DNA of 37,845 nt from the IMG/VR virus record IMGVR_UViG_3300017971_000149, positions 1 to 37,845 of that record. The stretch is one strand, 5' to 3'. The DNA comes from a virus. The translations under genes were made by a program, and so were the position numbers. Under the pieces are notes generated by a model. That model had not been told where the DNA came from. It ran no database searches and was given only the letters and a program-made list of their open reading frames with translations. Below, in pieces: positions 7,497-37,845 of the stretch (positions are counted from its first letter, which is position 1; the number at the start of each line of letters is the position of its first letter).

Positions 7497-7689
7497 CGTT
7501 CATCCTCTGAATGATCGCTCGCAATTCTCCACCCTGCATTTTCGCCAGTTTTTCCAGCTTGCGTACCCGACGATTGTAAACGTCGATGCGTTCTTCAATG
7601 CTGTCCATCCATGCGCGTATCTCTTTGCGCTGTTCCGTTAACTCGTCGACTTTCTTGAACAGTTCGGCCCGTTGAATCTCTCCGTTCAT
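7483..7689 (-). CDS. Small coiled-coil protein
   Basis: A 68-residue, highly charged helical protein with heptad-like spacing (AELFKKVDELTEQRKEIRAW, then VYNRRVRKLEKLAK). The start ATG 7689 has GAGGAAACC upstream; an earlier in-frame start lacks a ribosome site. The first 95 bases overlap the 3' end of the winged-helix gene 7595-8017 in another frame, an unusually long overlap. Function unknown; it probably dimerises. Confidence 0.6.
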   Translation of the reverse strand: MNGEIQRAELFKKVDELTEQRKEIRAWMDSIEERIDVYNRRVRKLEKLAKMQGGELRAIIQRMNDEKN

Positions 7690-8017
7690 TGCTGGTTTCC
7701 TCGATGATGATTTCGATTCCGGCAGCAACTCTCTCGCCTGCCGGCGTCAATGAAAATAACCACGGCCTTCTGCCTCGACCAAATGGATCTCGGCCCGTGA
7801 GCTCGATCTCGAGCTTGTCATCGTCGCTGAGTTTTGGAACGGGCGGCGCTTTCCGCTTTTGAATGAGGCCCTTTTGAATGCACAGGGATACCTGTCTGCT
7901 GGCTGATGTGATCGGGCTGTTGCCCTCGTACATCATGTTGATGAGCTGCACAGTGCATGGCTGCATCTGACTGATGGCATAGATCAGTCGCAATTCTGCA
8001 ATTCCGATGTTGAGCAT
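7595..8017 (-). CDS. MarR-like winged-helix protein
   Basis: A 140-residue protein starting at ATG 8017 behind AGAGGAAAG, coupled to the stop of the small HTH gene upstream in a TAATG junction. Residues about 1-110 follow a winged-helix plan: AELRLIYAISQMQPCTVQLINMMYEG (shown in part), SASRQVSLCIQKGLIQKR, and the wing RPWLFSLTPAGERVAAGI. The last about 30 residues are polar and overlap the next gene, so the conserved domain ends before the overlap. A regulator of early phage genes is the likeliest role. Confidence 0.65.
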   Translation of the reverse strand: MLNIGIAELRLIYAISQMQPCTVQLINMMYEGNSPITSASRQVSLCIQKGLIQKRKAPPVPKLSDDDKLEIELTGRDPFGRGRRPWLFSLTPAGERVAAGIEIIIEETSNERRDSTGRTVQESRRVNGTAQRDTRMDGQH

Positions 8018-8154
8018 TAGTCTTTCCTCTCTCGTTCGACCGTGGCCTGGCTGGTGCCAAGCTGTTCGGCCAGTTCTTTGTCCGTCAATCGTGAGGACGG
8101 CCGCAGCATGACCGTCTGCAACCGTCCCCACTCGTCTCTAAGTGTCGTGAACAT
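8017..8154 (-). CDS. Very small helix-turn-helix protein
   Basis: A 45-residue open frame from ATG 8154 to TAA 8017-8019. It contains a convincing helix-turn-helix, LTDKELAEQLGTSQATVERE (residues 23-42). It overlaps the upstream gene by 17 bases and the start of the winged-helix gene by one base (TAATG), so it fits the coupled operon exactly. A complete AAGGAGGTG sits unusually close (2 bases) to the ATG, so initiation may be inefficient or use another codon. It may act as a miniature DNA-binding regulator. Its short length makes it easy to miss. Confidence 0.6.
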   Translation of the reverse strand: MFTTLRDEWGRLQTVMLRPSSRLTDKELAEQLGTSQATVERERKD

Positions 8155-8353
8155 CACCTCCTTTTTCTTGTTGAACAGGTAAAACATCAGATTTCCTCAG
8201 CTCGATACATGGATCAGATTCCATGAGATCGGCGTGTTTGTAGAACGGCGTGAGGTGGCCCCTTAGATACAGAACATGATGCTCTTTTTCGGACACCTCA
8301 ACGTATTCACCCTTGTACATAACAATGGGATTTCCGTTGGCGGCTCGAATCAT
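8138..8353 (-). CDS. Hypothetical early protein
   Basis: A 71-residue protein from ATG 8353, in an ATGA overlap with the upstream gene. It contains two short beta-prone stretches (NPIVMYKGEYVEV, HHVLYLRGHLTPFY) and a charged C-terminus. The longer in-frame extension upstream lies inside the neighbouring gene and is excluded. No family recognised. It is kept because of its coupled start and coding-like composition. Confidence 0.55.
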   Translation of the reverse strand: MIRAANGNPIVMYKGEYVEVSEKEHHVLYLRGHLTPFYKHADLMESDPCIELRKSDVLPVQQEKGGDVHDT

Positions 8354-8793
8354 TCGCAGACAATCTCGTAAACGTCTTGCTCGACCATCTTGGTGCCTAC
8401 CTTGACGCGCTTGCAGACCGTACTGGTGAAGTTGACCCACAAACGAAGCTGCTTGCTCTTATCGAATGGCTCGACATCTTTCTCCCACCAACATGAGAAA
8501 TCGGTGAGCTTGTCGTCTTTGGGCCTGCTGCTTGGTACGTAATTCATGCGACGTAATGCAGCGAATACTCCTTCGAGCGTGTGCTTGTCGCCAGCGAATC
8601 GCAGGTCGAGACACTGATTGGCTGTGTCAATATCATTGCCAACTATCCATGATTTGACAGGCTCCAGTCCTTCTTCGAGCAGCAGGATTTGAGTTGCATA
8701 CTCGTCGATGAATTTGAGTCGCTTTTCATGGCGCTCGTTGGCCTCTTGCAAAGCATTTACGGTGCTGGTTCTGAGGTCTGTGATGATTGACAT
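8350..8793 (-). CDS. Hypothetical early protein, helical N-terminus
   Basis: A 147-residue protein with a helical N-terminal third (residues 1-42, including LQEANERHEKRLKFIDEYAT) and a beta-rich C-terminal half with several Trp and Phe residues (DFSCWWEKDVEPF, LRLWVNFTSTVCKRV). The start ATG 8793 is coupled to the upstream TAA in a TAATG junction, and the stop overlaps the next start. No known domain or catalytic motif is visible. Position suggests an early host-interaction or regulatory gene. Confidence 0.65.
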   Translation of the reverse strand: MSIITDLRTSTVNALQEANERHEKRLKFIDEYATQILLLEEGLEPVKSWIVGNDIDTANQCLDLRFAGDKHTLEGVFAALRRMNYVPSSRPKDDKLTDFSCWWEKDVEPFDKSKQLRLWVNFTSTVCKRVKVGTKMVEQDVYEIVCE

Positions 8794-9002
8794 TACTCTC
8801 TCCTGATATCGACTGTCGCAACGACCATGCCGCTGTCGTCGTTTGCGAGCAGAGTGGTTTTGCCAAGTGCGGCCCCTTTGGCATTAACGGTGGCGTCAAG
8901 GATTAGGCTTTCGATCCTCAACCCGAGCTTGAGCATTTCCTGTTTCCATCCGTCGGGATCGATTGGGAAATGATCGGGGAAAATGTGAATTTCGATGTGC
9001 AT
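8793..9002 (-). CDS. Small hypothetical early protein
   Basis: A 69-residue protein with beta-prone ends (HIEIHIFPDHFP, SGMVVATVDIRRE) and a helix in between. The stop is coupled to the following gene by TAATG, and the start at 9002 shares a base with the RadC-type stop. It is probably a small alpha/beta protein. No family recognised. Confidence 0.6.
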   Translation of the reverse strand: MHIEIHIFPDHFPIDPDGWKQEMLKLGLRIESLILDATVNAKGAALGKTTLLANDDSGMVVATVDIRRE

Positions 9003-9475
9003 TACATGATTCCTCTTGAGGCCAGGGATGTTGCTTGGGTTGCTTTGTGTCCGATGATGAGATGATCGAGAAGTCGAATGTCGATGAGTTCGAGTGCGGC
9101 TTTGATGCGTTTGGTGATTCGTTCGTCTGCCTGTGATGGTTCGGCTACCCCGGACGGGTGATTGTGCGCGAGTATCACGGCGGCTGCGTTTCGCTTGAGC
9201 GCTTCCTTGACTACCTCTCTCGGATAGACACTGGTGCCATCGACTGTGCCGCGGAACAGCTCTTGATAGTCGAGAACGTAGTGCCTGTTGTCGAGGTAGA
9301 TTGCAGAGAATATTTCATGCTCGAGGCCAGCTAGCCTTGCATGAAGAAATTTCTCGGTGTCTTTTGGCGATCGTATTGCAGATCCCACTGTTCCTGCGGT
9401 GCATTGCACATAGTTCTCAGCGATTTCTTCAACTGTCGCCTTTCGATAGCGGCCCTTTACTTTGATGTACAGCAT
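9002..9475 (-). CDS. RadC-type JAMM/MPN domain protein
   Basis: A 157-residue protein with the JAMM metal site of the RadC family: LAHNHPSGVAEPSQAD carries H104, H106, S114 and D117 in the HxHx7Sx2D pattern, with glutamates E52/E54 nearby and the core strand IFSAIYLDNRHYVL. It lacks the N-terminal helix-hairpin-helix domain of chromosomal RadC, as is usual for plasmid and phage copies. The activity of the family is unproven; JAMM sites elsewhere act as metallo-isopeptidases or hydrolases. It belongs to the leftward early operon with the DUF932 gene, a pairing typical of plasmid leading regions. Confidence 0.9.
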   Translation of the reverse strand: MLYIKVKGRYRKATVEEIAENYVQCTAGTVGSAIRSPKDTEKFLHARLAGLEHEIFSAIYLDNRHYVLDYQELFRGTVDGTSVYPREVVKEALKRNAAAVILAHNHPSGVAEPSQADERITKRIKAALELIDIRLLDHLIIGHKATQATSLASRGIM

Positions 9476-9638
9476 TGGCTTGGTCCTTATTGAGTTGTGC
9501 GGCCCGTGTTCTGGCCCACGCTTCGGGATACCTTTCGGTCTTGGTCTGTTTCTGCACGAGCTCGCCTGATTGTCTATCCAGTACGCCCCATTGCTGGTGC
9601 ATTTGGAACGGGATAAATCGAGGCTTATTGCGCGGCAC
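9429..9638 (-). CDS. First gene of leftward early operon, small basic protein
   Basis: A 69-residue, strongly basic and Gln-rich protein. It starts with GTG at 9638, six bases after a strong AGGAGG, so the start is well supported. Its 3' end overlaps the RadC-type gene by 47 bases. The sequence (FQMHQQWGVLDRQSGELVQKQ) resembles small proteins of plasmids that have a WxVxD strand followed by a helical, Arg-rich tail. It heads the leftward operon and so is probably made first after entry. Function unknown. Confidence 0.65.
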   Translation of the reverse strand: MPRNKPRFIPFQMHQQWGVLDRQSGELVQKQTKTERYPEAWARTRAAQLNKDQANAVHQSKGPLSKGDS

Positions 9639-9665
9639 GGAATCCTCCTTTCTGTGAAGTTGATC

Positions 9666-9711
9666 GGCCCTTTAGATTAAGGGAGTGTGGTTGCGGCCCA
9701 TTAGATTCAGG
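9666..9711. repeat. Direct repeat upstream of early operon (candidate operator)
   Basis: GGCCCTTTAGATTAAGG (9666-9682) and GGCCCATTAGATTCAGG (9695-9711) differ at two positions and start 29 bases apart, close to three helical turns. They lie 28-73 bases upstream of the GTG at 9638 on the leftward strand, where promoter or operator sites are expected. The first copy is itself partly palindromic (CCCTT...AAGGG). No good sigma70 -35/-10 pair is visible in this gap, so the repeats may be activator or repressor sites. The rest of 9639-9845 shows no gene. Confidence 0.55.
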
Positions 9712-9845
9712 AGAACCTGGCGAGCGCGCTCTCGGATTTTCAGATTGGAATGCGATTAGGATTGGAAGGCTTGCTGAGACATTGCTGCGAATGAGCTAAG
9801 AGAAAGCTGCGTAGCCTGGGATAAGCTGTAAAGCGAGCGGAGATA

Positions 9846-9887
9846 CAAAAAATGGCTGACGCTCGTCGTCCGTGACGAACGCCAGCC
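9846..9887 (-). terminator. Strong rho-independent terminator (leftward)
   Basis: On the minus strand GGCTGGCGTTCGTC pairs with GACGAGCGTCAGCC (14 pairs including two G-U) around a 6-base loop, followed by ATTTTTTG. It lies 10 bases after the stop of the gene at 9898-10482 and ends its transcript before the early operon promoter region. Confidence 0.9.
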
Positions 9888-9897
9888 GCGTTAAGGA

Positions 9898-10482
9898 TCA
9901 ACCCATCAGAATGTTGAGCGCTTCGTCCGTGGTTGCGACTGCTTCCTGCGTCTTGTCAGGAGCGTTGAAGCGGTAGCCCCGGTGCACACGATGGAGAGCG
10001 TCGAAGATCGGCCCCAGCGCATCTTTGTACTGCTGCTGGACCTGCATCTGCGTCAGCCATCGCAGCGCCTTGGCGTAGGACACTTCGCGATTCGCGTCGT
10101 TCGGGCTGGCCAATATACGATGCGAGGCCGCGATGACGTCCTGCTTCGCCTTTTCAACCGGCGCGGGCTTCATCAGGTTGCTCGACGGATAACCGAGGCA
10201 GCTGTTCTCGACGTACTCGAGTGCGCGGCGATCGACTTCGTGCTGGTCGATTTCGCCCTGCGCTTCCGAGTTATTCGGGAACTTCTTCTGGATGTGCAAC
10301 TCGGCAGCCGACAGCATCGGATCAACCGGAGCAGCGTCGATCCGAGCCTGCAACAGCTTCTCGAAGGCCGTGATCGTCTTGAGCTCGTCTTTCGTGAGCC
10401 CCAACTCGCTGGCCAGATCCGTCGTGTTTGCCTGAGCTTCAACAGCCCGTTCAGATAAGGTTTTTTCCGTTTTCTTGGTCAT
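9898..10482 (-). CDS. Hypothetical helical protein of the control region
   Basis: A 194-residue, almost wholly helical and charged protein. The start is ATG 10482, with GAAGGAC upstream; the in-frame extension to 10659 runs through the inverted-repeat region and is excluded. It contains a possible helix-turn-helix-like segment near the N-terminus (TDLASELGLTKDELKTI) but otherwise no recognisable domain. It stands alone between two leftward terminators, just downstream of an operator-like palindrome and a large inverted repeat. That suggests independent regulation and perhaps a role in control or replication initiation. This role is inference only. Confidence 0.7.
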   Translation of the reverse strand: MTKKTEKTLSERAVEAQANTTDLASELGLTKDELKTITAFEKLLQARIDAAPVDPMLSAAELHIQKKFPNNSEAQGEIDQHEVDRRALEYVENSCLGYPSSNLMKPAPVEKAKQDVIAASHRILASPNDANREVSYAKALRWLTQMQVQQQYKDALGPIFDALHRVHRGYRFNAPDKTQEAVATTDEALNILMG

Positions 10483-10512
10483 GTTACTGAGTCCTTCGTT
10501 AGTTAGAGATGC

Positions 10513-10528
10513 GTGGTCGACTGACCAC
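10513..10528. promoter_or_regulatory. Perfect palindrome upstream of the 194-aa gene
   Basis: GTGGTC-GACT-GACCAC has perfect 6-bp arms and lies 31-46 bases upstream of the ATG at 10482 on the leftward strand. It could be an operator for a dimeric protein or a small hairpin in the mRNA leader. No matching sigma70 boxes were found beside it. Confidence 0.5.
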
Positions 10529-10533
10529 CCGAT

Positions 10534-10629
10534 CCAGCCGCCACACCGGGCTTGACCTGTCAACGCCGCGGCAGCGGCACAAAAAATAAACAAGGACCGT
10601 TGACAGGACAAGAACGGTGTGGCATCTGG
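10534..10629. repeat. 32-bp inverted repeat around an A-rich core
   Basis: The 32 bases at 10598-10629 recur inverted at 10534-10565 with 27 of 32 matches. Each copy reads CGTTGACAGG, then CAAG, CGGTGTGGC and CTGG, with mismatches clustered between these blocks. The 32-base spacer contains an A-rich run (10580-10593). Both copies carry TTGACA, but no matching -10 box follows at normal spacing. The symmetry suggests protein-binding sites controlling the leftward gene, or part of a replication origin. Confidence 0.65.
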
Positions 10630-10639
10630 GCCGCACATA

Positions 10640-10694
10640 CAAAACCCCGGCAGCGCCACCCAGCAGAAATCAACCAGGGCGCCTAGCCGGGGCC
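10640..10694 (-). terminator. Rho-independent terminator (leftward) with no upstream gene
   Basis: On the minus strand CCCCGGC and GCCGGGG form the outer stem and GCGCC/GGCGC an inner one, separated by a small internal loop, and TTTTG follows. No convincing leftward gene lies upstream (10695-11500). The terminator must therefore end either a small RNA or read-through from the strong rightward/leftward control region. Confidence 0.75.
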
Positions 10695-11509
10695 ATAAAC
10701 AATAGCGGCCCAGACTGGTCGGATAAGTGGGCAGTCGGCCCCGCAGCTCTTACTGACGAGTAGGCGAAGCAACGTGACCCAAGAAAACGGAAAAAAACTC
10801 CCTTCTTTCATTGAACGGGCTGATTGAACTCAGCAGCAAACACCGGATTCTGCGCCGAGAGTCTTGGGGCCGAAAGCGCCAGCTCACAGATCACGGGCTT
10901 CGCTAAGAAGCTGCGCAGCGGTCGGCTCGAGGCTGAGCCGATGTTGATTCCGGCTGTCGATGCTCCGAGGCACATCCAGAGGGTCAGAAGTTCCCGATCG
11001 GAAGCGCAGGGCGGGCTTTTTTCGACCAGCACACCGATCGCGCACTCGGGTATGTCGAGGACTTTGCTGCCTCATCCGTCGATATTGCAACCGTCGAAGC
11101 GCGCGCCTCCGGTCAACAGGCGAAGCAGGCTAGTCGCGTCCTCGACATCCCCACCGGCCAGCCCGGCGTCGCGGATCGGCTTTTGGAAGTGGCCTACGAC
11201 TTTAGGCCTGCGGCTGACCAGTCAGGGCCCGCAGCAGACTCTAGATGCGCGGCCGATCAGCGACTCTCCGTGCACCGGGGCTGCCGGTTCGACGTCCCTG
11301 ACAGATATACGAGAAGCAGCGCGCCCGGACGAACGCTCACCTTCACAGGTTGATCTAGCGGCTGGCGTTCAAGGGGACGACGAACAGCGGCAGCCAGTGG
11401 CGATGGATCGTAGCGAGCGACATCTAACGATCGTGAGTCTTTTCGAGCAACGCAAAGACGACAGTCTTTTCCGTCGTCTGCGTAGCGCAGAAATAGCGAA
11501 CTCATTCGT
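10695..11509. other. Long non-coding, structured control region
   Basis: No gene can be supported here. Open frames exist on both strands (the longest 10824-11543, rightward) but are Ser/Arg/Pro-rich, lack ribosome sites and resemble no protein I know. The stretch has many inverted repeats: TCGGCTC/GAGCCGA (about 10922-10941), the cruciform-like CTGCGGCTGAC/GTCAG...CCGCAG (11208-11234), and AGACGAC/GTCGTCT (about 11456-11479). Together with the flanking terminator, DnaA-like boxes and promoter this suggests a regulatory, origin or packaging region, or a structured RNA. Confidence 0.55.
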
Positions 11510-11529
11510 TCATCCACAGCTTATCCACA
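11510..11529 (+). promoter_or_regulatory. Tandem DnaA-box-like sites
   Basis: TTATCCACA at 11521-11529 is a consensus DnaA box, and TCATCCACA at 11510-11518 differs by one base; they are in the same orientation, 11 bases apart. They lie just upstream of the left arm of the 17-bp inverted repeat and the late promoter. As the phage encodes no replication initiator that I can recognise, host DnaA binding here could support replication or regulate the promoter. Confidence 0.6.
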
Positions 11530-11537
11530 GGCTATGT

Positions 11538-11641
11538 GATTGAGAATGTTCGTTATTCAAAGAATGTATTTGACACGAGCATGGCACAGGACTTGTAATT
11601 AACTCAGTTCGCCCGGTATGGTTCAACGAACATTCTCAATC
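11538..11641. repeat. Perfect 17-bp inverted repeat flanking the late promoter
   Basis: GATTGAGAATGTTCGTT at 11538-11554 is exactly repeated in inverse orientation at 11625-11641. The two arms bracket the promoter at 11570-11599, with arm centres 87 bases apart. A further AAGAATGT (11560-11567) resembles half of the site. The arrangement suits cooperative binding or DNA looping by a phage regulator that silences or activates the rightward late transcript. Confidence 0.85.
11570..11599 (+). promoter_or_regulatory. Sigma70-type promoter for the rightward late genes
   Basis: TTGACA (11570-11575) is a perfect -35, and TGTAAT (11594-11599) matches the -10 in five of six positions, with an 18-base spacer. 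Transcription would start near 11606, ahead of the TerS-like gene at 11660. No phage RNA polymerase is encoded, so host RNA polymerase would use this promoter. Confidence 0.8.
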
Positions 11642-11659
11642 CCTGATCGGAGCCACCGG

Positions 11660-12046
11660 ATGTCTCAGCAACGCCTACCTCAAGCGAAGGACGCCGAACG
11701 GCCACTCACCGCAAAGCAGCGGGAACTCGTGGACCTGGTACTGACCACCGGAATGTCGATTAGAGAGTGCGCTGACCACTTAGGCCGAGACGTCTCCAAT
11801 CTCTACCGCGATCTGCGAAAGCCTCACGTTCGCAAATACTTACACGAGCGCACTCTCGAGCATATCGGCGTCCTCGCCCCAATCGCTGCTCGAACGCAGG
11901 GGCAGCTCTTAAGCTCAGACTCGGACCACGTAAGGGCGAGCGTTGCTGAGAACATCCTCGATCGGCACCTCGGCAAGCCCATCGCTCGGGCTCAAGTCCA
12001 GCATCAAGGGTCGGTGAATGTGACGATCGATCTCGGTTCGGACTAG
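11660..12046 (+). CDS. Terminase small subunit-like protein
   Basis: A 128-residue protein with an N-terminal helix-turn-helix (LTAKQRELVDLVLTTGMSIR, then ADHLGRDVSNLYRDLRKPHV, about residues 16-57), a helical middle (VRASVAENILDRHLGK) and a C-terminal strand QGSVNVTIDLG. This plan is typical of small terminase subunits, which recognise the packaging site and feed DNA to TerL. The start ATG 11660 has GGAG 7 bases upstream; ATG 11618 lies only about 12 bases from the predicted transcript start and inside the repeat, and has no ribosome site. It is the first gene of the late transcript, 2.2 kb before TerL. Confidence 0.7.
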   Translation: MSQQRLPQAKDAERPLTAKQRELVDLVLTTGMSIRECADHLGRDVSNLYRDLRKPHVRKYLHERTLEHIGVLAPIAARTQGQLLSSDSDHVRASVAENILDRHLGKPIARAQVQHQGSVNVTIDLGSD

Positions 12047-12205
12047 CACTGACGTCAAACGAAGCCACCCCTGCCATTGAGCTCACAGGTGCTAGGGGGG
12101 TTGAAAACTGCGTTGCCCTTACAGGTATCCCCTCCCATCCACGCACCTTTTGAAAACCCCTTTGTGAAAAAAAGGGCGTATATTTTCCTTTGTGGAGGTG
12201 GTGTT

Positions 12206-12388
12206 ATGAGTGAAATGACTCCGCAGGAAGCGGCAACCAAGTGGTGTCCGTATTATCGTCAGAGCGATCCGCACAGTGATAATCGGGCGGGCAGGTGTTT
12301 GGCTGATGAGTGTGCTGACTGGATTTGGGTGAAGCAGGGGAATCAGCCCCCGGTGAAGGGTTATTGTGGTTTGACCCACCCTGATTGA
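12206..12388 (+). CDS. Small Cys/Trp-rich conserved phage protein
   Basis: A 60-residue protein starting at ATG 12206, 8 bases after GGAGG. It has four cysteines in the order KWCPYYR, GRCLADEC, GYCGL, with Trp residues between (DWIW). I recognise this pattern from small phage proteins with an ending like GYCGL, presumably metal-binding. The in-frame upstream extension has no ribosome site. The 159-base gap before it holds no gene; a CCCTTT/AAAGGG hairpin lies at 12158-12176. Role unknown. Confidence 0.75.
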   Translation: MSEMTPQEAATKWCPYYRQSDPHSDNRAGRCLADECADWIWVKQGNQPPVKGYCGLTHPD

Positions 12389-12425
12389 AGGCAGTATGCT
12401 CCGTGGTGTCGGGGCCGATGGGACA

Positions 12426-12439
12426 GTAAGTACACTTAC
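12426..12439. promoter_or_regulatory. Short perfect palindrome
   Basis: GTAAGT-AC-ACTTAC is a perfect 6-bp inverted repeat with a 2-base centre, between the Cys-rich gene and the terminator at 12456. It could be an operator; no promoter boxes are obvious beside it. Confidence 0.35.
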
Positions 12440-12455
12440 AGATCCCCCCTGAACG

Positions 12456-12494
12456 AAAGAGCTTGCATCCTTGAGGCCCCTCTTTATTTTTTTT
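12456..12494 (+). terminator. Possible rightward terminator or attenuator
   Basis: AAAGAG (12456-12461) can pair with CTCTTT (12480-12485), followed by ATTTTTTTT. The stem is short and A/T-rich with an 18-base loop, so termination would be partial. The Shine-Dalgarno of the next gene (GGAGAG) directly follows the T-run. Confidence 0.5.
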
Positions 12495-12504
12495 GGAGAG
12501 CATC

Positions 12505-12639
12505 ATGCGTGACATGCCGAAGCCGAAGAAGGGCGGCAAGCCGAAGCGGATCAAGACCAAGAATCCTCCGGGTGGTTCCCAGACGCCGGGTGCGAAGGGA
12601 ACGTGGCCCAAGCCGCCGCCCAAGAAGAACCGCAAATGA
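12505..12639 (+). CDS. Small Lys/Pro-rich basic protein
   Basis: A 44-residue protein composed almost entirely of Lys, Pro, Gly and Arg (MRDMPKPKKGG..., ending KPPPKKNRK). It starts at ATG 12505 behind GGAGAG, and its TGA overlaps the next ATG in an ATGA junction. The composition suggests a disordered nucleic-acid-binding peptide. Similar small Lys/Pro-rich proteins occur in phage late operons. Function unknown. Confidence 0.65.
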   Translation: MRDMPKPKKGGKPKRIKTKNPPGGSQTPGAKGTWPKPPPKKNRK

Positions 12640-12920
12640 GCAATTTCAAGAATATCTTCGGCAACGAGGGCTGGATTCAGTCAGCGATTGATCGCTCTCG
12701 TGGCAAGACCCGGCCTGGCGAGAGGCGCAGGCGGGCTGCTTCTCGGGATGCTTCTCGTCGCCGGCAGACGTTGTTGAATGACCCGCTTTTCAAAAAATAC
12801 GGGAATCCGTCTGATCTCGATCCGAACAAAGGCAATGCTTCCGGCAAGGGCATCAGTGGACTGCTGGCCGCTGCCTTGAAGAAGAAACAGCAGGAGCAGC
12901 CCAAGCAGGGCATGATCTGA
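12636..12920 (+). CDS. Small basic hypothetical protein
   Basis: A 94-residue protein starting in the ATGA overlap with the previous gene. A short N-terminal helix (NFKNIFGNEGWIQSAID) is followed by an Arg-rich stretch (RRRRAASRDASRRR, about residues 26-42) and a Gln/Lys-rich end. It is likely nucleic-acid-binding. It is coupled to the metallopeptidase-like gene by TGATG. No family recognised. Confidence 0.6.
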   Translation: MSNFKNIFGNEGWIQSAIDRSRGKTRPGERRRRAASRDASRRRQTLLNDPLFKKYGNPSDLDPNKGNASGKGISGLLAAALKKKQQEQPKQGMI

Positions 12921-13291
12921 TGGCTAGGGTTCTCCGGGTTGGGGTGTATGCGACCGCGTGGCGCTGCATCCAGATTCACTGTGATATTGCTTGGATGCGC
13001 CGTGTCGGGGTTGGCGGCATGGTGGTGGGGCGCCGCGTTTTCTTTGCCAAACCGGCTGACCAGATCAATCCACAGCTATTGCGGCATGAGCTGGAGCACG
13101 TTTACCAGCAGATCCGTGAAGGCGTTGTGATTTTTTACCTGAAGTATTTCTGGTATTCGTTGCGCTACGGCTACAAGGACAACCCGTTCGAGGTTGAGGC
13201 GCACGAACGCCAGCATGATCCACTCACGCAGACCGAGGAACAACTGCTATGGAAATTAAGAGAAGGCTCAATAAAATCGCGAGTCGCCTGA
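12920..13291 (+). CDS. HExxH metallopeptidase-like protein
   Basis: A 123-residue protein with a zinc-protease motif RHELEHVYQQ (HELEH at 56-60) and a downstream acidic motif NPFEVEAHERQ (about 89-98), the arrangement of minimal gluzincin-like peptidases. The N-terminal strands lead into it (VFFAKPADQINPQLL). Such small predicted peptidases occur in many phages next to packaging genes. Possible roles are processing of a virion or host protein, but substrates are unknown. The start is coupled by TGATG, and the 3' end overlaps the coiled-coil gene by 43 bases. Confidence 0.7.
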   Translation: MARVLRVGVYATAWRCIQIHCDIAWMRRVGVGGMVVGRRVFFAKPADQINPQLLRHELEHVYQQIREGVVIFYLKYFWYSLRYGYKDNPFEVEAHERQHDPLTQTEEQLLWKLREGSIKSRVA

Positions 13292-13833
13292 CGCCTCAGA
13301 TCGAGGTAATGAACATCGCAACCGAGATGCAGCGTATGTGCCAGCGCTTCGAGGAGCTGCTGGACTACGGTGAGGAAAAGGTCGAGAAGGCCGCGAGGAA
13401 GGGCGAGACAATGGCGGCGCGTGTCGATCGCCAGCGCAAGGAAGAACAGGCCGAGATTCTGCGCCAGCAGAAGGCCGAGTCCGACGAGAACCGCAAGGAT
13501 CAGGAAGAAGCGGCGGCAGAGCGTCAGAAGCTCATGGACAAGTCGAAGAAGAACCCCATGCCGGAGCAGCGCCGCGTCGAGGTCGAGATTGATCGCACGA
13601 TCCCGCCGGGAACCAAGATGGGCGACCAGTTCGGTGACGGTGACGGTATCCCTGAAGACGATGGGCTGGATCGCTTCTATTCCGAGGATGCCAAGACCGG
13701 CGAGATTTTCGATCCGCGAGCCGATGCGCCGCAGTCCGTTCAGGACGGAACCTGCGATGATGAGCCGGTGAAGAAGAAAACCAAGAAGAAAACCAAGAAG
13801 AAGGCCAAGCGCAAGGCCAAGAAGAAAACCTGA
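13249..13833 (+). CDS. Coiled-coil protein with histone-like Lys-rich tail
   Basis: A 194-residue protein. Residues about 15-100 form a long charged coiled coil (FEELLDYGEEKVEKAARKG, then many Arg/Glu/Gln repeats). An acidic middle follows (GDGDGIPEDDGLD), and the C-terminal 20 residues are almost only Lys with Thr, Ala and Arg in KKK-T/A repeats, like histone H1 or AlgP tails. That tail should bind DNA non-specifically. The start ATG 13249 has GAGGAA upstream, 43 bases inside the previous gene. A role in DNA packaging or condensation is plausible but inferred. Confidence 0.6.
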   Translation: MEIKRRLNKIASRLTPQIEVMNIATEMQRMCQRFEELLDYGEEKVEKAARKGETMAARVDRQRKEEQAEILRQQKAESDENRKDQEEAAAERQKLMDKSKKNPMPEQRRVEVEIDRTIPPGTKMGDQFGDGDGIPEDDGLDRFYSEDAKTGEIFDPRADAPQSVQDGTCDDEPVKKKTKKKTKKKAKRKAKKKT

Positions 13834-14015
13834 TGCAGCAGCATTATCCTGTTGATCGCTGCACGACGATGAACTTCGGGCGCGGCTTTCTGTGCAATTG
13901 TGGCCGTACCGTTGTCGGCACAAACAGACTTCAGGAACATTTCGGGAAATCACTGGAAGAACTGGAGGCCGATCTCAATGCCCGGAGAGAATCTGCACAA
14001 ACTGTCGAAGTCTGA
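13833..14015 (+). CDS. Small Cys-containing hypothetical protein
   Basis: A 60-residue protein coupled to the previous stop (TGATG). It has a possible metal-binding cluster (LCNCGRTV, with a later His in LQEHF) and a helical acidic end. It overlaps the following gene by 38 bases. No family recognised. The zinc-finger-like C-x-C ... H pattern could bind DNA before packaging, but this is a guess. Confidence 0.5.
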   Translation: MQQHYPVDRCTTMNFGRGFLCNCGRTVVGTNRLQEHFGKSLEELEADLNARRESAQTVEV

Positions 14016-14265
14016 GCTGGATCAGCTTCGCGGCATCGTTCGCAAGGTGTACGGCAAGGAAGAAGGGCTCACTGACGCGATGGTGAAGGAGTTCCTGACG
14101 GATCGGGAGTGCGACAAGCTGATCGATTCCTTGCTGCCGTCCACGGTGGAGAAGCTGAAGGAAATGGGCGAGTCGCGTGGCTTCCTGTCCGAGAAGAAGT
14201 TCTTCCTGCCGACCCGGATCGTTGGCATAAACGGCAAGCCTCTGCACAAAGAGGACGATGCCTGA
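13978..14265 (+). CDS. Hypothetical protein preceding TerL
   Basis: A 95-residue helical protein (KLSKSELDQLRGIVRKVYG, TDRECDKLIDSLLPSTVEKL) starting at ATG 13978, 9 bases after GGAGG. It ends 8 bases inside the terminase gene. Small genes directly before TerL often encode the small terminase subunit; this one lacks a clear HTH, so I prefer the gene at 11660 as TerS. It may be an accessory packaging factor. Confidence 0.6.
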   Translation: MPGENLHKLSKSELDQLRGIVRKVYGKEEGLTDAMVKEFLTDRECDKLIDSLLPSTVEKLKEMGESRGFLSEKKFFLPTRIVGINGKPLHKEDDA

Positions 14266-15793
14266 TTTTCATTACAAACCAGACGGCGCGACCCTTCGTG
14301 AGTTTATGAAGGATGATTCGTTCTGGCGCGGCATCCGTGGCCCGGTGGGTTCTGGTAAATCGGTCGCCTCCTGTGTCGAAGTGTTCCGGCGAGCTTTGCA
14401 ACAGCAGCCGAATGAGAAGGGCATACGACGCAGCAGGTGGGCCGTCATTCGTAACACCGGGCCGCAGCTCAAGACCACCACGATCAAGACCTGGCTGGAT
14501 TGGTTTCCCGAAGACGAGTTTGGCCCTTTCCGTTGGGGCGTGCCGTTCACCCATCACATCATGGTGGGCGACATCGACCTCGAGGTTATCTTCCTTGCGC
14601 TGGATTCCGAGGAAGATATTCGCAAATTGCTGTCCTTAGAACTCACTGGAATATGGGCAAACGAAGCAAGAGAAATGCCGAAGTCTATTATCGACGCCTG
14701 TACCATGCGTGTCGGTCGGTTTCCTTCCATGCGCGAAGGTGGGCCAAGCTGGTACGGGATGATCTGCGACACCAACGCTCCTGAAGACGATCACTGGTGG
14801 CCGATCATGGCCGGTGATGCGCCGCTGCCAGAGGATTTCACCGAACAGCAGGCATTGATGCTCAGGAAGCCCGAAGGCTGGAAATTCTTCAACCAGCCCG
14901 CGGCGATGGTGGAAATCAAGAACGAGGATGGTGATGTCACTGGCTACGAGATCAGCGACCTTGCCGAAAACCGCAAGAACCTGACGCCGGATTACTACAA
15001 GAAGATCATCACCGGCAAGACGAAGGACTGGATCGACGTCTACGTGATGAACCGCCTCGGGACGGTCAGCGAAGGCAAGATCATCTACCCGAACTTCAAC
15101 GATCAGGTACACAAATCCAAGGACATCATTCCGGTTGCGCCAGGTCGGCCCATTTATGTCGGCCTCGATTTCGGATTCAGCCCCGCCGCTGTGTTCGCGC
15201 AGCGTTTCTACGGTGGTCGCTGGAACATTCTGGCCGAGCTGGTGCCTGAAGACATCTCGACCCCGGCCTTTGCGCGGGAAGTCAAGGCCAAGATCAAGGA
15301 ACTGATGGTCGATGACCGGCAGGAAGTCCGTATCTTTGGCGATCCGGCTGGCGATCAGCGCACACCGGGGCGCGAGGACACCAAGACCGCGTTCCAGATC
15401 ATGCGCGCCGGGGGCATTCGGGCCAAGCCAGCGCACAGCAACGATCCGGCCATACGCATCGAGGCCGTGAAGCAGGTCATTGACCGTATGGTGGACGGTA
15501 AGCCAGCTCTGCTGGTCAGCCCTGAGTGTCGGAACCTTCTGAAAGGCTTTATCGCCGGGTACTGCCGCCGCCGCATCAATGCGCGTGGACCGGCGCGGTA
15601 CGAGGATCGACCCGCCAAGAACAAGTATTCTCACCCTCACGATGCCCTGCAATACCTGATGTTGGGTGCTGGTGAGGGCCGGGATTTGACCAAAAGCGCA
15701 TCGCCAAGCGCGCCAAAAGCCAAGGCTAAGACCAAATGGAACGTGTTCGGGAAGAAAAAACGCGCGAGGACTACGCGACGCTCGACTATCTAG
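14258..15793 (+). CDS. terL: Terminase large subunit
   Basis: A 511-residue DNA-packaging motor. The N-terminal ATPase has Walker A GPVGSGKS (28-35) and the Walker-B-like GIWANEAREM (131-140) where NE replaces DE, a common variant in podoviral terminases. RVGRFP and CDTNAPEDDHWW follow. The C-terminal RNase-H-like nuclease has acids D304 (VGLDFGFSPA), D362 (FGDPAG) and D462 (SHPHDALQY). It pumps DNA into proheads through the portal and cuts concatemers. The Lys/Arg-rich C-terminus (about 475-511) probably contacts DNA or the portal. It overlaps the gene on each side, so translation is coupled. Confidence 0.95.
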   Translation: MPDFHYKPDGATLREFMKDDSFWRGIRGPVGSGKSVASCVEVFRRALQQQPNEKGIRRSRWAVIRNTGPQLKTTTIKTWLDWFPEDEFGPFRWGVPFTHHIMVGDIDLEVIFLALDSEEDIRKLLSLELTGIWANEAREMPKSIIDACTMRVGRFPSMREGGPSWYGMICDTNAPEDDHWWPIMAGDAPLPEDFTEQQALMLRKPEGWKFFNQPAAMVEIKNEDGDVTGYEISDLAENRKNLTPDYYKKIITGKTKDWIDVYVMNRLGTVSEGKIIYPNFNDQVHKSKDIIPVAPGRPIYVGLDFGFSPAAVFAQRFYGGRWNILAELVPEDISTPAFAREVKAKIKELMVDDRQEVRIFGDPAGDQRTPGREDTKTAFQIMRAGGIRAKPAHSNDPAIRIEAVKQVIDRMVDGKPALLVSPECRNLLKGFIAGYCRRRINARGPARYEDRPAKNKYSHPHDALQYLMLGAGEGRDLTKSASPSAPKAKAKTKWNVFGKKKRARTTRRSTI

Positions 15794-16299
15794 TGTGCTT
15801 CGTTGACCGTGACGATCGCAACTGGTGGGATTATGTGTTCCGTACCCGCGAAGGCTTCCGGCATTGCTTCGCGCTTCAGTGGTGTGAGTGGTCGAAACGC
15901 TGGCTGATGGTGGATTGGCGCCAGTCCCGCACTGATTTCACGGTGTTCTTCGACTTCGAGATCGAATTGATCCTGCGGCGAATGCACGAAACAAAAGGGA
16001 CGGTGGTGAAGTTCACCGGCCCGAAGCGGCCTGACGATGCGGGTGGCCTCATCACCTATTGCAGCAACATCCTCAGTCGATTCCTCGGCCTCGGCAACCC
16101 GGTAATACTGACACCATACGGTTTATATCGTAGACTCGTCGCATCTGGTGGTGAGGTCGTCTTTTCATGGAGGGACGTAGCCCATGAGCAGCAAGCCCAA
16201 ACAGTCGGCCCAATCGAAGGAACTGGAACGCATTCAGATCGAACGCGAGAAGCAGCTCCGGGTCGAGAATGCGCGCCAAACCACCAAGGCGTTCAGTGA
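15736..16299 (+). CDS. Hypothetical late protein between TerL and portal
   Basis: A 187-residue protein starting 58 bases inside TerL. The first 140 residues look like a folded alpha/beta domain rich in Trp and Phe (RNWWDYVFRTREGFRHCFAL, WLMVDWRQSRTDF). The final about 40 residues are polar and overlap the next gene by 116 bases in another frame. I recall similar Trp-rich small proteins next to terminases in podoviruses but have no function. The start lacks a strong ribosome site, so translation is probably coupled to TerL. Confidence 0.65.
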   Translation: MERVREEKTREDYATLDYLVCFVDRDDRNWWDYVFRTREGFRHCFALQWCEWSKRWLMVDWRQSRTDFTVFFDFEIELILRRMHETKGTVVKFTGPKRPDDAGGLITYCSNILSRFLGLGNPVILTPYGLYRRLVASGGEVVFSWRDVAHEQQAQTVGPIEGTGTHSDRTREAAPGRECAPNHQGVQ

Positions 16300-16573
16300 C
16301 AACATCGCCTTTCGCAAGAAACTCCGAGGTATTTTTTCCCTGCTATCGGCTGGCTTTGCCGGTTTTCCGCGTGGCCTTGGCGCTGGCGGCGGCAGGCAAT
16401 TTGGTGGTCGTAGCACATCTGGCGGTGGCGGTAGCGGTTATGCAGGTGGCCTGGGTAGTGGCAGCACACGGCCCGGAAGCTACGGCGGCAGCGGCAGCGG
16501 TGGCGGTGGCGGTGGCGGTGGTAGCCCTGCTCCACGTAGGCCGTCAGTACCGAAGGGTGGGGTTTACCGATGA
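16184..16573 (+). CDS. Gly-rich small late protein
   Basis: A 129-residue protein. Residues 1-50 are helical and charged; about 60-115 are a low-complexity Gly/Ser tract, and the end is Pro/Arg-rich. It starts at ATG 16184 with GGAGGG upstream and ends 4 bases inside the portal gene (ATGA). Gly-rich small proteins here could be minor virion or prohead components. No family recognised. Confidence 0.6.
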   Translation: MSSKPKQSAQSKELERIQIEREKQLRVENARQTTKAFSDNIAFRKKLRGIFSLLSAGFAGFPRGLGAGGGRQFGGRSTSGGGGSGYAGGLGSGSTRPGSYGGSGSGGGGGGGGSPAPRRPSVPKGGVYR

Positions 16574-18126
16574 AGCTCTCTGGCCCTGAACTGCTGAAGC
16601 GTTTCTCCAAGGCCAAGTCAGCGCGATCAAACTGGGAAGATTTGTGGCAGGACATCTACGATCTGGTGCTTCCTGCGCGTGAAGGTTTTTACGAAACGAC
16701 CCCCGGCGAGGAAAGAACCGAGGAAATCTTTGACGAGACTGCGCTGGTTTCGCTCGCTGATTTCGTTTCCCGCATCCATCAAGGCGTCATTCCAGCGCAC
16801 TTGATGTGGTTCAGGCTGGAGCCGGGTCCAGAAGTGCCGCCGCAGCAGCGGGCAGAACTGCAAGAGCAGCTTGATCTGGTTGGCAAGTTCATCTGGGAAG
16901 CCATCGTGAACTCCAACTTCGTCAATGAGGCTCAGGAAGTTCTGACCGATATTGCGATCGGCTGGTCAACGCTCATCATCGACGACGGTGTTGATGGCAA
17001 GCTGTTGAGCTTCAAGTGCGTCCCGCAATGCCAAACCTTCTGGGACACAGGCGGCCCCAACAAGGAGGTTGACGGCGTGTTCCGGGTGCGCCACAAGGTT
17101 CGCATCAAGGACATCAAGCTCATCTGGCCGGACGCCAAGATCAGCGATGCGCTTCAGGGCAAGGCCGATGGCGATCCCGAAGCAACGACCAATCTGGTCG
17201 AGGCCAGCTACCGCGATTGGAGCCGCAAGGAAACGCCGCGCTACTGCTATCAGGTGGTTGCCGGTGAAGACAAGTCGCTGGTGATCGATAACTACGAGGA
17301 AGGTCTGGGCTCGCGCCCGTATGTGACACCACGCTGGTCGGTTGCGGCCGGTGAGGTCTATGGCCGCGGCCCGTTGGTGTCGGCGCTGCCGGCGATCCGC
17401 ACCACGAACCTCGTCACCGAAATGATTCTTGAGAACTCGCAGATGGCGATTTCTGGAATCTGGCAGGTGGACGACGATGGCACGATCAACGTGGATAACG
17501 TCGAGATTGTTCCCGGTGCTGTGTATGCGCGCCCCACTGACAGTCGCGGCCTCGAGCGCACTGATAGCCCAAACAATTTCAATGTGGCCGACATCGTACT
17601 GAGCAACCAGCAGGAGAACATTCGCAAGGCCCTGTTCGCTCAGAATCTTGGCCCATTGGATCAGACGCCGCGTTCTGCTACGGAGATCCAAGCCCGAATG
17701 CAGGACTTGGCCGAACAGACCGCAGGGCCGTCAGGACGATTGAAAGTCGAATGGCTGGACAAAATGATCCAGCGCATCGTGTGGCTGTTGACCCGCCGTG
17801 GCGTATTGGAAATGCCGCGTGTCGATGGCCGCCAGGTCCGTATCGTTGCCAAATCACCGCTTGCCCGCGCACAGAAGTTTGAAGAAATCGAGCGCATCCG
17901 TGGCTTTGCCGGTGACGTTGTGACGATGTTGGGGCCGCAGGCCAGCCAGCTTTACATCGATCAGGACGAGCTGGTTGACGAACTGCAAATGAAGTGGGAA
18001 GTGCCGCAAAAGATGGTACGCGATCAAGCCAACCGAGAGAGGATGATGCAGGGCATGGCTGAAGCGGCTCAGGAACAGGGAATTGTACCGGGCGGTCTGC
18101 CTGCTCAAGCTGAAATTGGGCAATGA
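16570..18126 (+). CDS. Portal (head-tail connector) protein
   Basis: A 518-residue protein forming the dodecameric portal at the unique capsid vertex through which DNA passes. The N-terminus (LLKRFSKAKSARSNWEDLWQ, DIYDLVLPAREGFY) and later segments such as RPYVTPRWSVAAGEVYGRGP and PLDQTPRSATEIQARMQDLA match podoviral T7 gp8-like portals, and the length agrees with T7 (536). The C-terminal region is helical with a Gln/Met-rich tail. It overlaps its neighbours by 4 bases each and follows TerL closely, as in T7-like virion modules. Confidence 0.93.
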   Translation: MKLSGPELLKRFSKAKSARSNWEDLWQDIYDLVLPAREGFYETTPGEERTEEIFDETALVSLADFVSRIHQGVIPAHLMWFRLEPGPEVPPQQRAELQEQLDLVGKFIWEAIVNSNFVNEAQEVLTDIAIGWSTLIIDDGVDGKLLSFKCVPQCQTFWDTGGPNKEVDGVFRVRHKVRIKDIKLIWPDAKISDALQGKADGDPEATTNLVEASYRDWSRKETPRYCYQVVAGEDKSLVIDNYEEGLGSRPYVTPRWSVAAGEVYGRGPLVSALPAIRTTNLVTEMILENSQMAISGIWQVDDDGTINVDNVEIVPGAVYARPTDSRGLERTDSPNNFNVADIVLSNQQENIRKALFAQNLGPLDQTPRSATEIQARMQDLAEQTAGPSGRLKVEWLDKMIQRIVWLLTRRGVLEMPRVDGRQVRIVAKSPLARAQKFEEIERIRGFAGDVVTMLGPQASQLYIDQDELVDELQMKWEVPQKMVRDQANRERMMQGMAEAAQEQGIVPGGLPAQAEIGQ

Positions 18127-18434
18127 GTGAAGACGGAATCGGGAAATCCAAACGACCACCGAAGAAAACACCACGAGCAAAAGCAAAGCAGTATCTAGGG
18201 CCGGATGGCTTGCGCCGGCCACCGAAGGTTGAGCGCGAGCTCAATGAGTCCTTTGCCATTGTGTTTTCAAGCGCAGCAGGCAAGAAGACGCTCGACTACC
18301 TGAAGTCGATCACGACGAACCGGGTGCTGGAACCGGGTTTGCCGGAAAATACCTACTCGTATCAGGAAGGAGCCCGTTGGCTGATGGGCGTAATATCAAC
18401 ACGAATCAAAGACGGTGAGGAAAAGAAACCATGA
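18123..18434 (+). CDS. Bbp19-like structural protein
   Basis: A 103-residue protein with a basic N-terminal tail (about 1-40) and a helical domain, FAIVFSSAAGKKTLDYLKSI followed by YSYQEGARWLMGVISTRI. This resembles the Bbp19-like domain first seen in Bordetella phage BPP-1, usually next to portal and scaffold genes. It is coupled to portal and scaffold by ATGA overlaps. A head-assembly role is assumed from context. Confidence 0.7.
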   Translation: MSEDGIGKSKRPPKKTPRAKAKQYLGPDGLRRPPKVERELNESFAIVFSSAAGKKTLDYLKSITTNRVLEPGLPENTYSYQEGARWLMGVISTRIKDGEEKKP

Positions 18435-19276
18435 AATATTTACTGTGGCTCTTGTGGCTGGTTGTTCCACGTGAAACAGAAGGGGGCGAAGGTGACAGCG
18501 GTGGAGAGGGCGATGCTGGCGGTGATCCTGCTGGTGATGGTGATGGCGGTGGCGACGGTGACGGCGCAGCTGGTGAGCGCAAACCGCTTGGGGGGTCTGA
18601 CCCGGAAGGCAAACCGGACTGGCTGGCTGACAAGTTTTGGAATCCTGACCTCAAAGCGCCGCGAACCGAAGTCCTTGCCAAATCCTTCAACGAGCTCGAG
18701 GGCAAACTCCGCACCAAGACGGAAGAACTGAAGGAAGAAGTGCTTGCGGATTTGCGCGCACAGGCCCCGGAGAAATACGAAGTCAATCTGTCCGAGGATC
18801 TGAAGCTGCCGGAAAACGTCGAGTTCAATCTGACCGACGAAGACCCGCTGGTGGGCTGGTTCTCAGGTTTCGCCAAAGACATTGGACTCACTCAGGAGCA
18901 GTTCGACAAGGCGATCAACGAGTACGTTGGCATCGAGATCGGCAACATGCCGGACATGGAAGCGGAGATCGGCAAGCTGGGCGACCACGGCCAGGATCGA
19001 CTGCTGCGCGTCCACAACTGGCTTGAAACAAGGCTTTCAGAGGATGAGCTGTCTTCGATGAGCTCGCTACTGAACTCAGCGGAGCAGATCGCCGCATTGG
19101 AGAAGCTGATGAAAGCGTCCGGCCCCAACGACTTTGACGGCGATTCTGGCGACGAGCCGTTGACGCTGGAAGAACTGCGCGAGATGCAAAACGACACGCG
19201 TTACTGGCAGGACAAAGACCCGGCGTTCATCAAGAAAGTCGAGGCTGGCTACCAGAGGCTTTACAAAAACCAGTAA
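18431..19276 (+). CDS. Capsid scaffolding protein
   Basis: A 281-residue acidic protein that would guide prohead assembly and then leave. A very acidic Gly/Asp tract (about 18-50) is followed by a helical body (FNELEGKLRTKTEELKEEVL; LGDHGQDRLLRVHNWLETRL) and a C-terminal helix (PAFIKKVEAGYQRLYKNQ) as in podoviral scaffolds. Position between portal and capsid supports the call. Unusually, it begins with a hydrophobic leader (MKYLLWLLWLVVP), and no downstream in-frame Met is near. A Shine-Dalgarno GTGAGG precedes the start. Codons 11-16 contain a parS sequence (see 18463). Confidence 0.85.
   Translation: MKYLLWLLWLVVPRETEGGEGDSGGEGDAGGDPAGDGDGGGDGDGAAGERKPLGGSDPEGKPDWLADKFWNPDLKAPRTEVLAKSFNELEGKLRTKTEELKEEVLADLRAQAPEKYEVNLSEDLKLPENVEFNLTDEDPLVGWFSGFAKDIGLTQEQFDKAINEYVGIEIGNMPDMEAEIGKLGDHGQDRLLRVHNWLETRLSEDELSSMSSLLNSAEQIAALEKLMKASGPNDFDGDSGDEPLTLEELREMQNDTRYWQDKDPAFIKKVEAGYQRLYKNQ
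18463..18478. promoter_or_regulatory. parS: parS-like site (chromosomal ParB box)
   Basis: TGTTCCACGTGAAACA matches the bacterial chromosomal parS consensus TGTTNCACGTGAAACA at every fixed position; its two halves differ at one base. It lies within the first codons of the scaffold gene. I noticed no second copy. Host ParB/Spo0J would be expected to bind it; whether the phage ParB-like protein does is unknown. Confidence 0.85.
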
Positions 19277-37551: not shown

Positions 37552-37845
37552 GGCACCACTCCAGCAGGAACAAGAGGACATCCTTGAAACATTGGGTGCT
37601 GCGCGCAGCTATGTCTGGGATGATTTGAAGTCGCCGGCCACAGCAATCAATCCGCCTGGTCAGGCTAGTGATCCCGATGTTGAGGCAGCCAGTGGTTTGC
37701 TGTTGTTCGATGCAGGAGGTACGGAGCTGGTGTTTATTCTTCAGCAGATGCCGCACCAGTGGGCTGAAGGCACAGCGATTATTCCTCATGTTCACTGGCA
37801 GAAAACAACGAGTGCGGCTGGCGATGTTTTGTGGCGCTTACGGTA
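37544..37845 (+). CDS. Conserved phage virion-type protein, 5' part (continues at base 1)
   Basis: Start ATG 37544 overlaps the o-spanin end by 8 bases. The first 59 residues before the repeat include ETLGAARSYVWDDLKSP and the repeat region continues the frame into base 1, giving 204 residues overall. The WDDL...P / GLLLF pattern is familiar from hypothetical phage proteins near the tail and lysis genes. Function unknown; see the entry at 1-436. Confidence 0.75.
   Translation, partial: MSKAPLQQEQEDILETLGAARSYVWDDLKSPATAINPPGQASDPDVEAASGLLLFDAGGTELVFILQQMPHQWAEGTAIIPHVHWQKTTSAAGDVLWRLR
37723..37845. repeat. Terminal direct repeat, right copy (circular contig overlap)
   Basis: Identical to bases 1-123. 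Closing here gives a circle of 37,722 bases and restores one continuous 204-codon gene. Confidence 0.9.

Follow-up and report, generated by a model that had tools for sequence, protein, structure and literature searches.

Inverted sites around the terS promoter of an environmental phage recur, with drifted sequence, in related phages

The small terminase gene of phage W (IMGVR_UViG_3300017971_000149, positions 1-37,845, the whole 37.8-kb stretch being called the window below) is preceded by a perfect inverted repeat whose two arms lie on either side of a promoter motif. This is a real, recurrent and probably regulatory arrangement around the terS promoter. The idea that the paired sites are regulatory is still the best reading, as an inverted pair of altered sequence is seen again in three relatives and the gaps of the strong cases are near-constant, although three other close relatives lack it. 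Since the layout is kept while the sequence changes, the arms are probably a pair of protein-docking sites. The promoter that they surround is more interesting than first described. Altogether, the arrangement points to a conserved late-gene control element in a little-known group of environmental phages in which neither an RNA polymerase nor a sigma factor was recognised. Conservation of the layout without the sequence could also help to find like operator pairs elsewhere among phages.

The window begins and ends with the same 123 bases (1-123 and 37723-37845), which form an exact terminal repeat. Two independent contigs, G001 and L135, belong to the same phage (99.9% identical) and span the terminal junction; the window thus represents a complete circular map of 37,722 bp. 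The record is classed among those with linear-type ends despite this circular map. In sample 3300028840, two contigs of phage W leave a gap at 10719-12559, covering the repeat region. Leftward genes on the left of the map encode a ParB-like protein, SSB, recombination exonucleases and a RadC-like protein, and the rightward genes starting with terS encode TerL, portal, major head protein, tail proteins, an internal virion protein and an Rz-like spanin. The inverted repeat is located between these divergent sets of genes and coincides with the terS promoter. The start of terS is supported by an N-terminus, MS-Q--P, that is conserved in seven relatives. No polymerase, sigma factor, helicase or replication initiator was recognised among the phage W proteins scanned, and profile searches found neither a tyrosine integrase nor a sigma54 enhancer-binding protein; the latter was encoded in none of the three phage records checked. 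TerL is 41% identical to that of Methylophilales phage MEP301 and 60% identical to that of Pelagibacter phage EXVC031P. MEP301 was assembled as a circle and relies on host polymerases, having none of its own (PMC8024684). TerS of phage W had no match among 50,697 phage records, and DNA searches of the phage collection, near and distant, gave none either. TerS alignment found no relatives in bacterial genomes, and no host was therefore found for phage W.

Table 1. Positions of the features of phage W in the window
Feature	Position	Strand	Remarks
Winged-helix protein	7595-8131		phage W
56-aa HTH-like protein, candidate binder	8017..8187	-	counterparts in relatives whose sequence covers the region
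DnaA-box-like TCATCCACA	11510..11518	+	one mismatch; upstream member of a tandem pair with 11-bp spacing; tandem or single box in 6/7 close members
Exact DnaA box TTATCCACA	11521..11529	+	10 nt before TTGA of the left arm; same register in 6/7, not L083
Left arm GATTGAGAATGTTCGTT	11538..11554	+	core TTGA-N4-RTTCG; about -70 to -54 relative to the predicted start
AGAATGT, half-site	11561-11567		
TTGACA, -35-like hexamer	11570..11575	+	TTGAC in 7/7, TTGACA in 6/7 close members
Sigma54-type -24/-12 element TGGCACAGGACTTGTAAT	11582..11599	+	best matrix match in the whole window; includes TGTAAT
TGTAAT, -10-like hexamer	11594..11599	+	18 nt after TTGACA
Right arm	11625..11641	-	reverse complement of the left arm; within the terS leader; about +18 to +34
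terS, small terminase subunit	11660..12046	+	128 aa; N-terminal helix-turn-helix; PHROG 2538; alignment; weak fold match to PaP3 small terminase

A perfect 17-bp inverted repeat around TTGACA-18-TGTAAT, with its right arm in the 5' leader of the TerS-like gene, had been described from the sequence, and both points were borne out (Table 1). The arms are complementary at 17 of 17 positions and separated by 70 nt, and the right arm ends 18 nt before terS. Their centres are 87 bp apart, at about -62 and +26 of the late promoter. Neither arm is palindromic on its own, each being an asymmetric TTGA-N4-RTTCG as read from the sequence. When up to three mismatches were allowed, the arms were the sole two matches to the arm sequence in the window, where shuffles average 0.14, and the observed arm match was never attained by shuffled flanks. 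Chance is ruled out as the source of the pair. Neither the window nor 80 related loci yielded a further perfect inverted repeat (at least 15 nt, gap 15-150 nt), the exact arm-gap-arm pattern had no match in viral contigs, and no Rfam RNA family was found at the repeat site. An extra half-site had also been noticed near the -35 hexamer; AGAATGT is indeed present there, but nothing similar is conserved in the relatives.

TerL and TerS searches gave six phage loci with the region upstream of terS (L083-L088, L-numbers designating related phage loci; TerS 50-76% identical). Together with phage W, they make up the seven close members. Their upstream regions are strongly diverged and the landmarks stand in ungapped register, in the following order: TTATCCACA repeats (not in L083), 10 nt, TTGA (exact in five of the seven), then TTGACA, six bases and TGGCAY. 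The left arm keeps a fixed register with the promoter across the relatives. Besides phage W, two strong cases of the pair were observed, L083 having 21-nt arms with two mismatches and L087 having arms that match at 16 of 18 positions. Arm sequences differ between the three phages, and the gaps are 70 nt in phage W and in L083 and 68 nt in L087 when its arms are counted as 21 nt. L085 is a partial case, with a 9-nt remnant and a 76-nt gap. The pair is absent from L084, L086 and L088 and hence cannot be essential to the group; in these three phages the leader after the -10-like hexamer measures 35-36 nt, versus 48-64 nt in the others. All six arms of phage W, L083 and L087 match the core TTGA-N4-RTTCG at nine of nine positions, this core having been derived from those same six arms. 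In L083, and likewise in L087, the two arms have unlike N4 middles but outer blocks that agree. A variable middle with constant outer blocks suggests, from three strong homologous cases only, a protein site with two contacts rather than a base-paired stem.

The explanation that best accounts for the repeat, its recurrence with drifted sequence, its fixed register and the promoter motif would add to these observations protein binding, looping, repression and timing. The arms would be two inverted copies of one bipartite DNA-binding site with the core given above, and one DNA-binding protein, of the phage or of the host, would sit on both. Once bound, it would hold the promoter, presumably an overlap of the TTGACA -35 hexamer with the sigma54-type -24/-12 element, in a small loop or would stop polymerase at the downstream site, and the packaging and structural operon would be kept off until the right time. 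Our leading but tentative reading, to which we give somewhat less than an even chance, is that the arms form an operator pair that brackets the main late promoter and controls it through looping or through a roadblock at the right arm. Copies of the arms occur only locally and nowhere else in the window, which is consistent with a local operator. Against an operator pair, the arms are not palindromic, unlike usual dimer operators, and of the three strong homologous cases L083 and L087 may share one exchanged promoter cassette. The E. coli gal operators OE and OI, held in a loop by GalR and HU, resemble the arms of phage W in that two like sites bracket a promoter, one at about -60 and the other downstream; they are centred at -60.5 and +53.5, 113 bp apart (PMC4693257). 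The gal system differs in that a GalR dimer binds each of its 16-bp operators, which are dyads, whereas the putative sites of phage W are asymmetric, with a spacing of 87 bp.

AlpA-like and winged-helix proteins had been put forward as binders. Their distribution among genomes makes neither likely as the common binder, because the AlpA-like protein of the relatives is absent from the phage W genome and the winged-helix protein has no counterpart in any relative examined. Counterparts of the 56-aa HTH-like protein were detected in L083, L085 and L086, the last of which is without the inverted pair. A phage gene whose presence tracks the pair was not found among the relatives, and the binder is possibly a host protein. 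Other kinds of site were considered as well. A site for a global phage regulator was disfavoured by the lack of additional arm copies in the window, and a ParB parS site by the arms not being palindromic; an att site was rejected, as no tyrosine integrase was found. No IHF sites were seen on inspection by eye only.

Could the arms serve packaging instead? As TerS binding sites, they would form a pac- or cosB-like packaging-initiation element, and TerS may then repress its own promoter too. In lambda cosB, repeated sites (R sites) bound by the small terminase lie directly upstream of the small terminase gene. Phage W is similar in the position of its arms, immediately upstream of terS at a single-copy locus, and differs in having two inverted sites only, placed around a promoter. 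TerS has an N-terminal HTH, and HTH domains are the route by which small terminases bind pac or cos sites (PMC9611059). However, in this small sample the arm sequence does not track the TerS DNA-binding domain, which weakens the packaging-site reading. L083 and L087 share a promoter and arm cassette that is 81% identical, yet their TerS HTH is only 47% identical, and L084, whose HTH is 76-78% identical to those of L083 and phage W, is without the pair. Moreover, a cohesive end is not visible, the window passing through the region unbroken. We therefore consider a packaging site unlikely, while it is the alternative that survives best.

The promoter had been labelled a sigma70 late promoter. 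TTGACA-18-TGTAAT is present, and the phage W hexamers match 11 of 12 bases by simple count. A sigma70 promoter needs an A at -11, the second position of the -10 hexamer. All seven close members read TG[CT]A[AG]T at the -10-like hexamer and so have a G at this position. A sigma70 scan requiring A there did not report TTGACA-18-TGTAAT of phage W, and the phage W intergenic region yielded no standard sigma70 promoter on either strand. All seven carry, inside the spacer, TGGCAY-N5-KTGYA, which has the -24 GG, the TGC-type -12 and the correct spacing of a sigma54 promoter. The sigma70 label is doubtful because the seven homologous promoters are all without -11A and with this sigma54-type element. 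At -12, three of the seven have GC and four have GT, and GT is also found in the listed sigma54 sites of pspA, pspG and hydN (PMC3844500).

This motif was spotted by eye first and scored after, with a matrix made from 29 intergenic sigma54 sites of Salmonella (PMC3844500). The seven elements scored 13.8-22.7, versus 14.2-22.7 for verified Salmonella sites in a leave-one-out comparison, L087 falling just below that range. In six of the seven phages, the element is the top matrix match of the entire contig. By contrast, upstream scores reached at most 3.5 in any of 28 more distant relatives, meaning that the element is absent there; the gap between the close and distant groups is too wide to stem from discovery by eye. 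To judge by its bases, the promoter looks closer to the rarer sigma54 type than to the ordinary type. Since TTGACA is kept too, overlapping sigma54 and sigma70-type promoters are plausible. In E. coli glmY, as reported in the GlmY reference cited in PMC4591121, a sigma70-type promoter is likewise overlapped by a -24/-12 element of the TGGCAC-N5 type. Unlike glmY, the phage W group lacks -11A in all seven -10-like hexamers.

The only features conserved upstream of the sigma54-type element were the DnaA-box-like repeats and the left arm, and no phage enhancer-binding protein was found. If sigma54 acts at the terS promoter, a host enhancer-binding protein must serve, and the timing of late genes would then depend on a regulator of stress or nutrients in the host, a link that would be unusual among phages. 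No sigma54-type phage late promoter was found in the literature searched, most subscription journals lying outside its coverage. The broader picture would be that of a phage lineage dependent on host polymerase, whose main late promoter is under host sigma54 with a host enhancer-binding protein and is wrapped by fast-changing inverted sites, the layout being kept while the sequence drifts. As a whole we find this picture doubtful.

Two further readings seem improbable to us, and about equally so. The first is that the arms pair with each other, in the transcript or as an extruded cruciform, and so control translation or promoter melting. A transcript across both arms would indeed fold well (-33.7 kcal/mol, z -2.2), and between phage W and L083 or L087 some arm positions are altered on both sides. 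The left arm, however, is upstream of the promoter, so that terS mRNA carries the right arm only, and folding of the terS leader is no better than that of shuffles (z 0.03); these two points are the main argument against a hairpin. In addition, the intergenic region of phage W offers no standard sigma70 promoter, on either strand, to transcribe both arms, the stem of L083 and that of L087 would each be interrupted midway by two neighbouring unpaired positions, and a 70-nt loop is unfavourable to a cruciform. The second is that DnaA boxes, arms and promoter make up a DnaA-dependent replication origin of a phage without its own initiator. The tandem DnaA-box-like repeats at 11510-11529 are possibly an origin or a regulator site. 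Boxes in fixed register in six of the seven close members, a divergent non-coding region of roughly 0.5-1.2 kb, scans that recognised no polymerase, helicase or initiator, and the similar lack of polymerases in the related MEP301 (PMC8024684) fit an origin. But L084, L086 and L088 have the boxes without the inverted pair and L083 has the pair without a box, so the two elements are separable, and no sharp sign of an origin is seen in the GC skew of phage W. Marginally less probable is that the right arm is a neutral inverted duplicate left by template switching, without function. Its patchy presence and the behaviour of the right-arm segment as a 25-nt insertion in the leader speak for this; the persistence of the pair in phage W, L083 and L087 despite change in both arms, the relatedness of the right arms of phage W and L087, and the recurrence of a different pair at the same place in L027/L031 speak against it.

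Finally, we looked at the wider family. In the 170 nt before terS of 37 relatives, inverted repeats with a score of at least 14 were seen four times, whereas random segments taken from the same contigs would give 0.16. In the distant L027/L031, an ordinary TTGACA promoter at the same position upstream of terS is bracketed by a bipartite pair of unrelated sequence, TATCAACACCTT-N-GACTGTCT. Both the excess and this pair speak for an operator pair. A scan of viral contigs with the full promoter pattern returned 31 places, including six family members, and on inspection the terS-promoter context was not seen in those outside the six. Several other features were observed in these genomes. In L027 (4340-4461), the right arm of the bipartite inverted pair extends to the start codon. 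The inverted repeats that precede terS in L026 and L034 have gaps of 69 and 79 nt and a right arm overlapping the -35, a different geometry. In L013, L014, L017 and L072, the open frames upstream of terL are very long, at about 800-1,550 codons, and their terS was not found within the sequence stretch covered. In L095 (record G003, 8434-18687), terS is about 11 kb away from terL. A tRNA gene lies downstream of terS in L086 (5698-5771), and about 240 nt upstream of terS, L085 and L083 have a hairpin, CAGTTYGTAAACCRAACTG, with a compensatory change between both phages.
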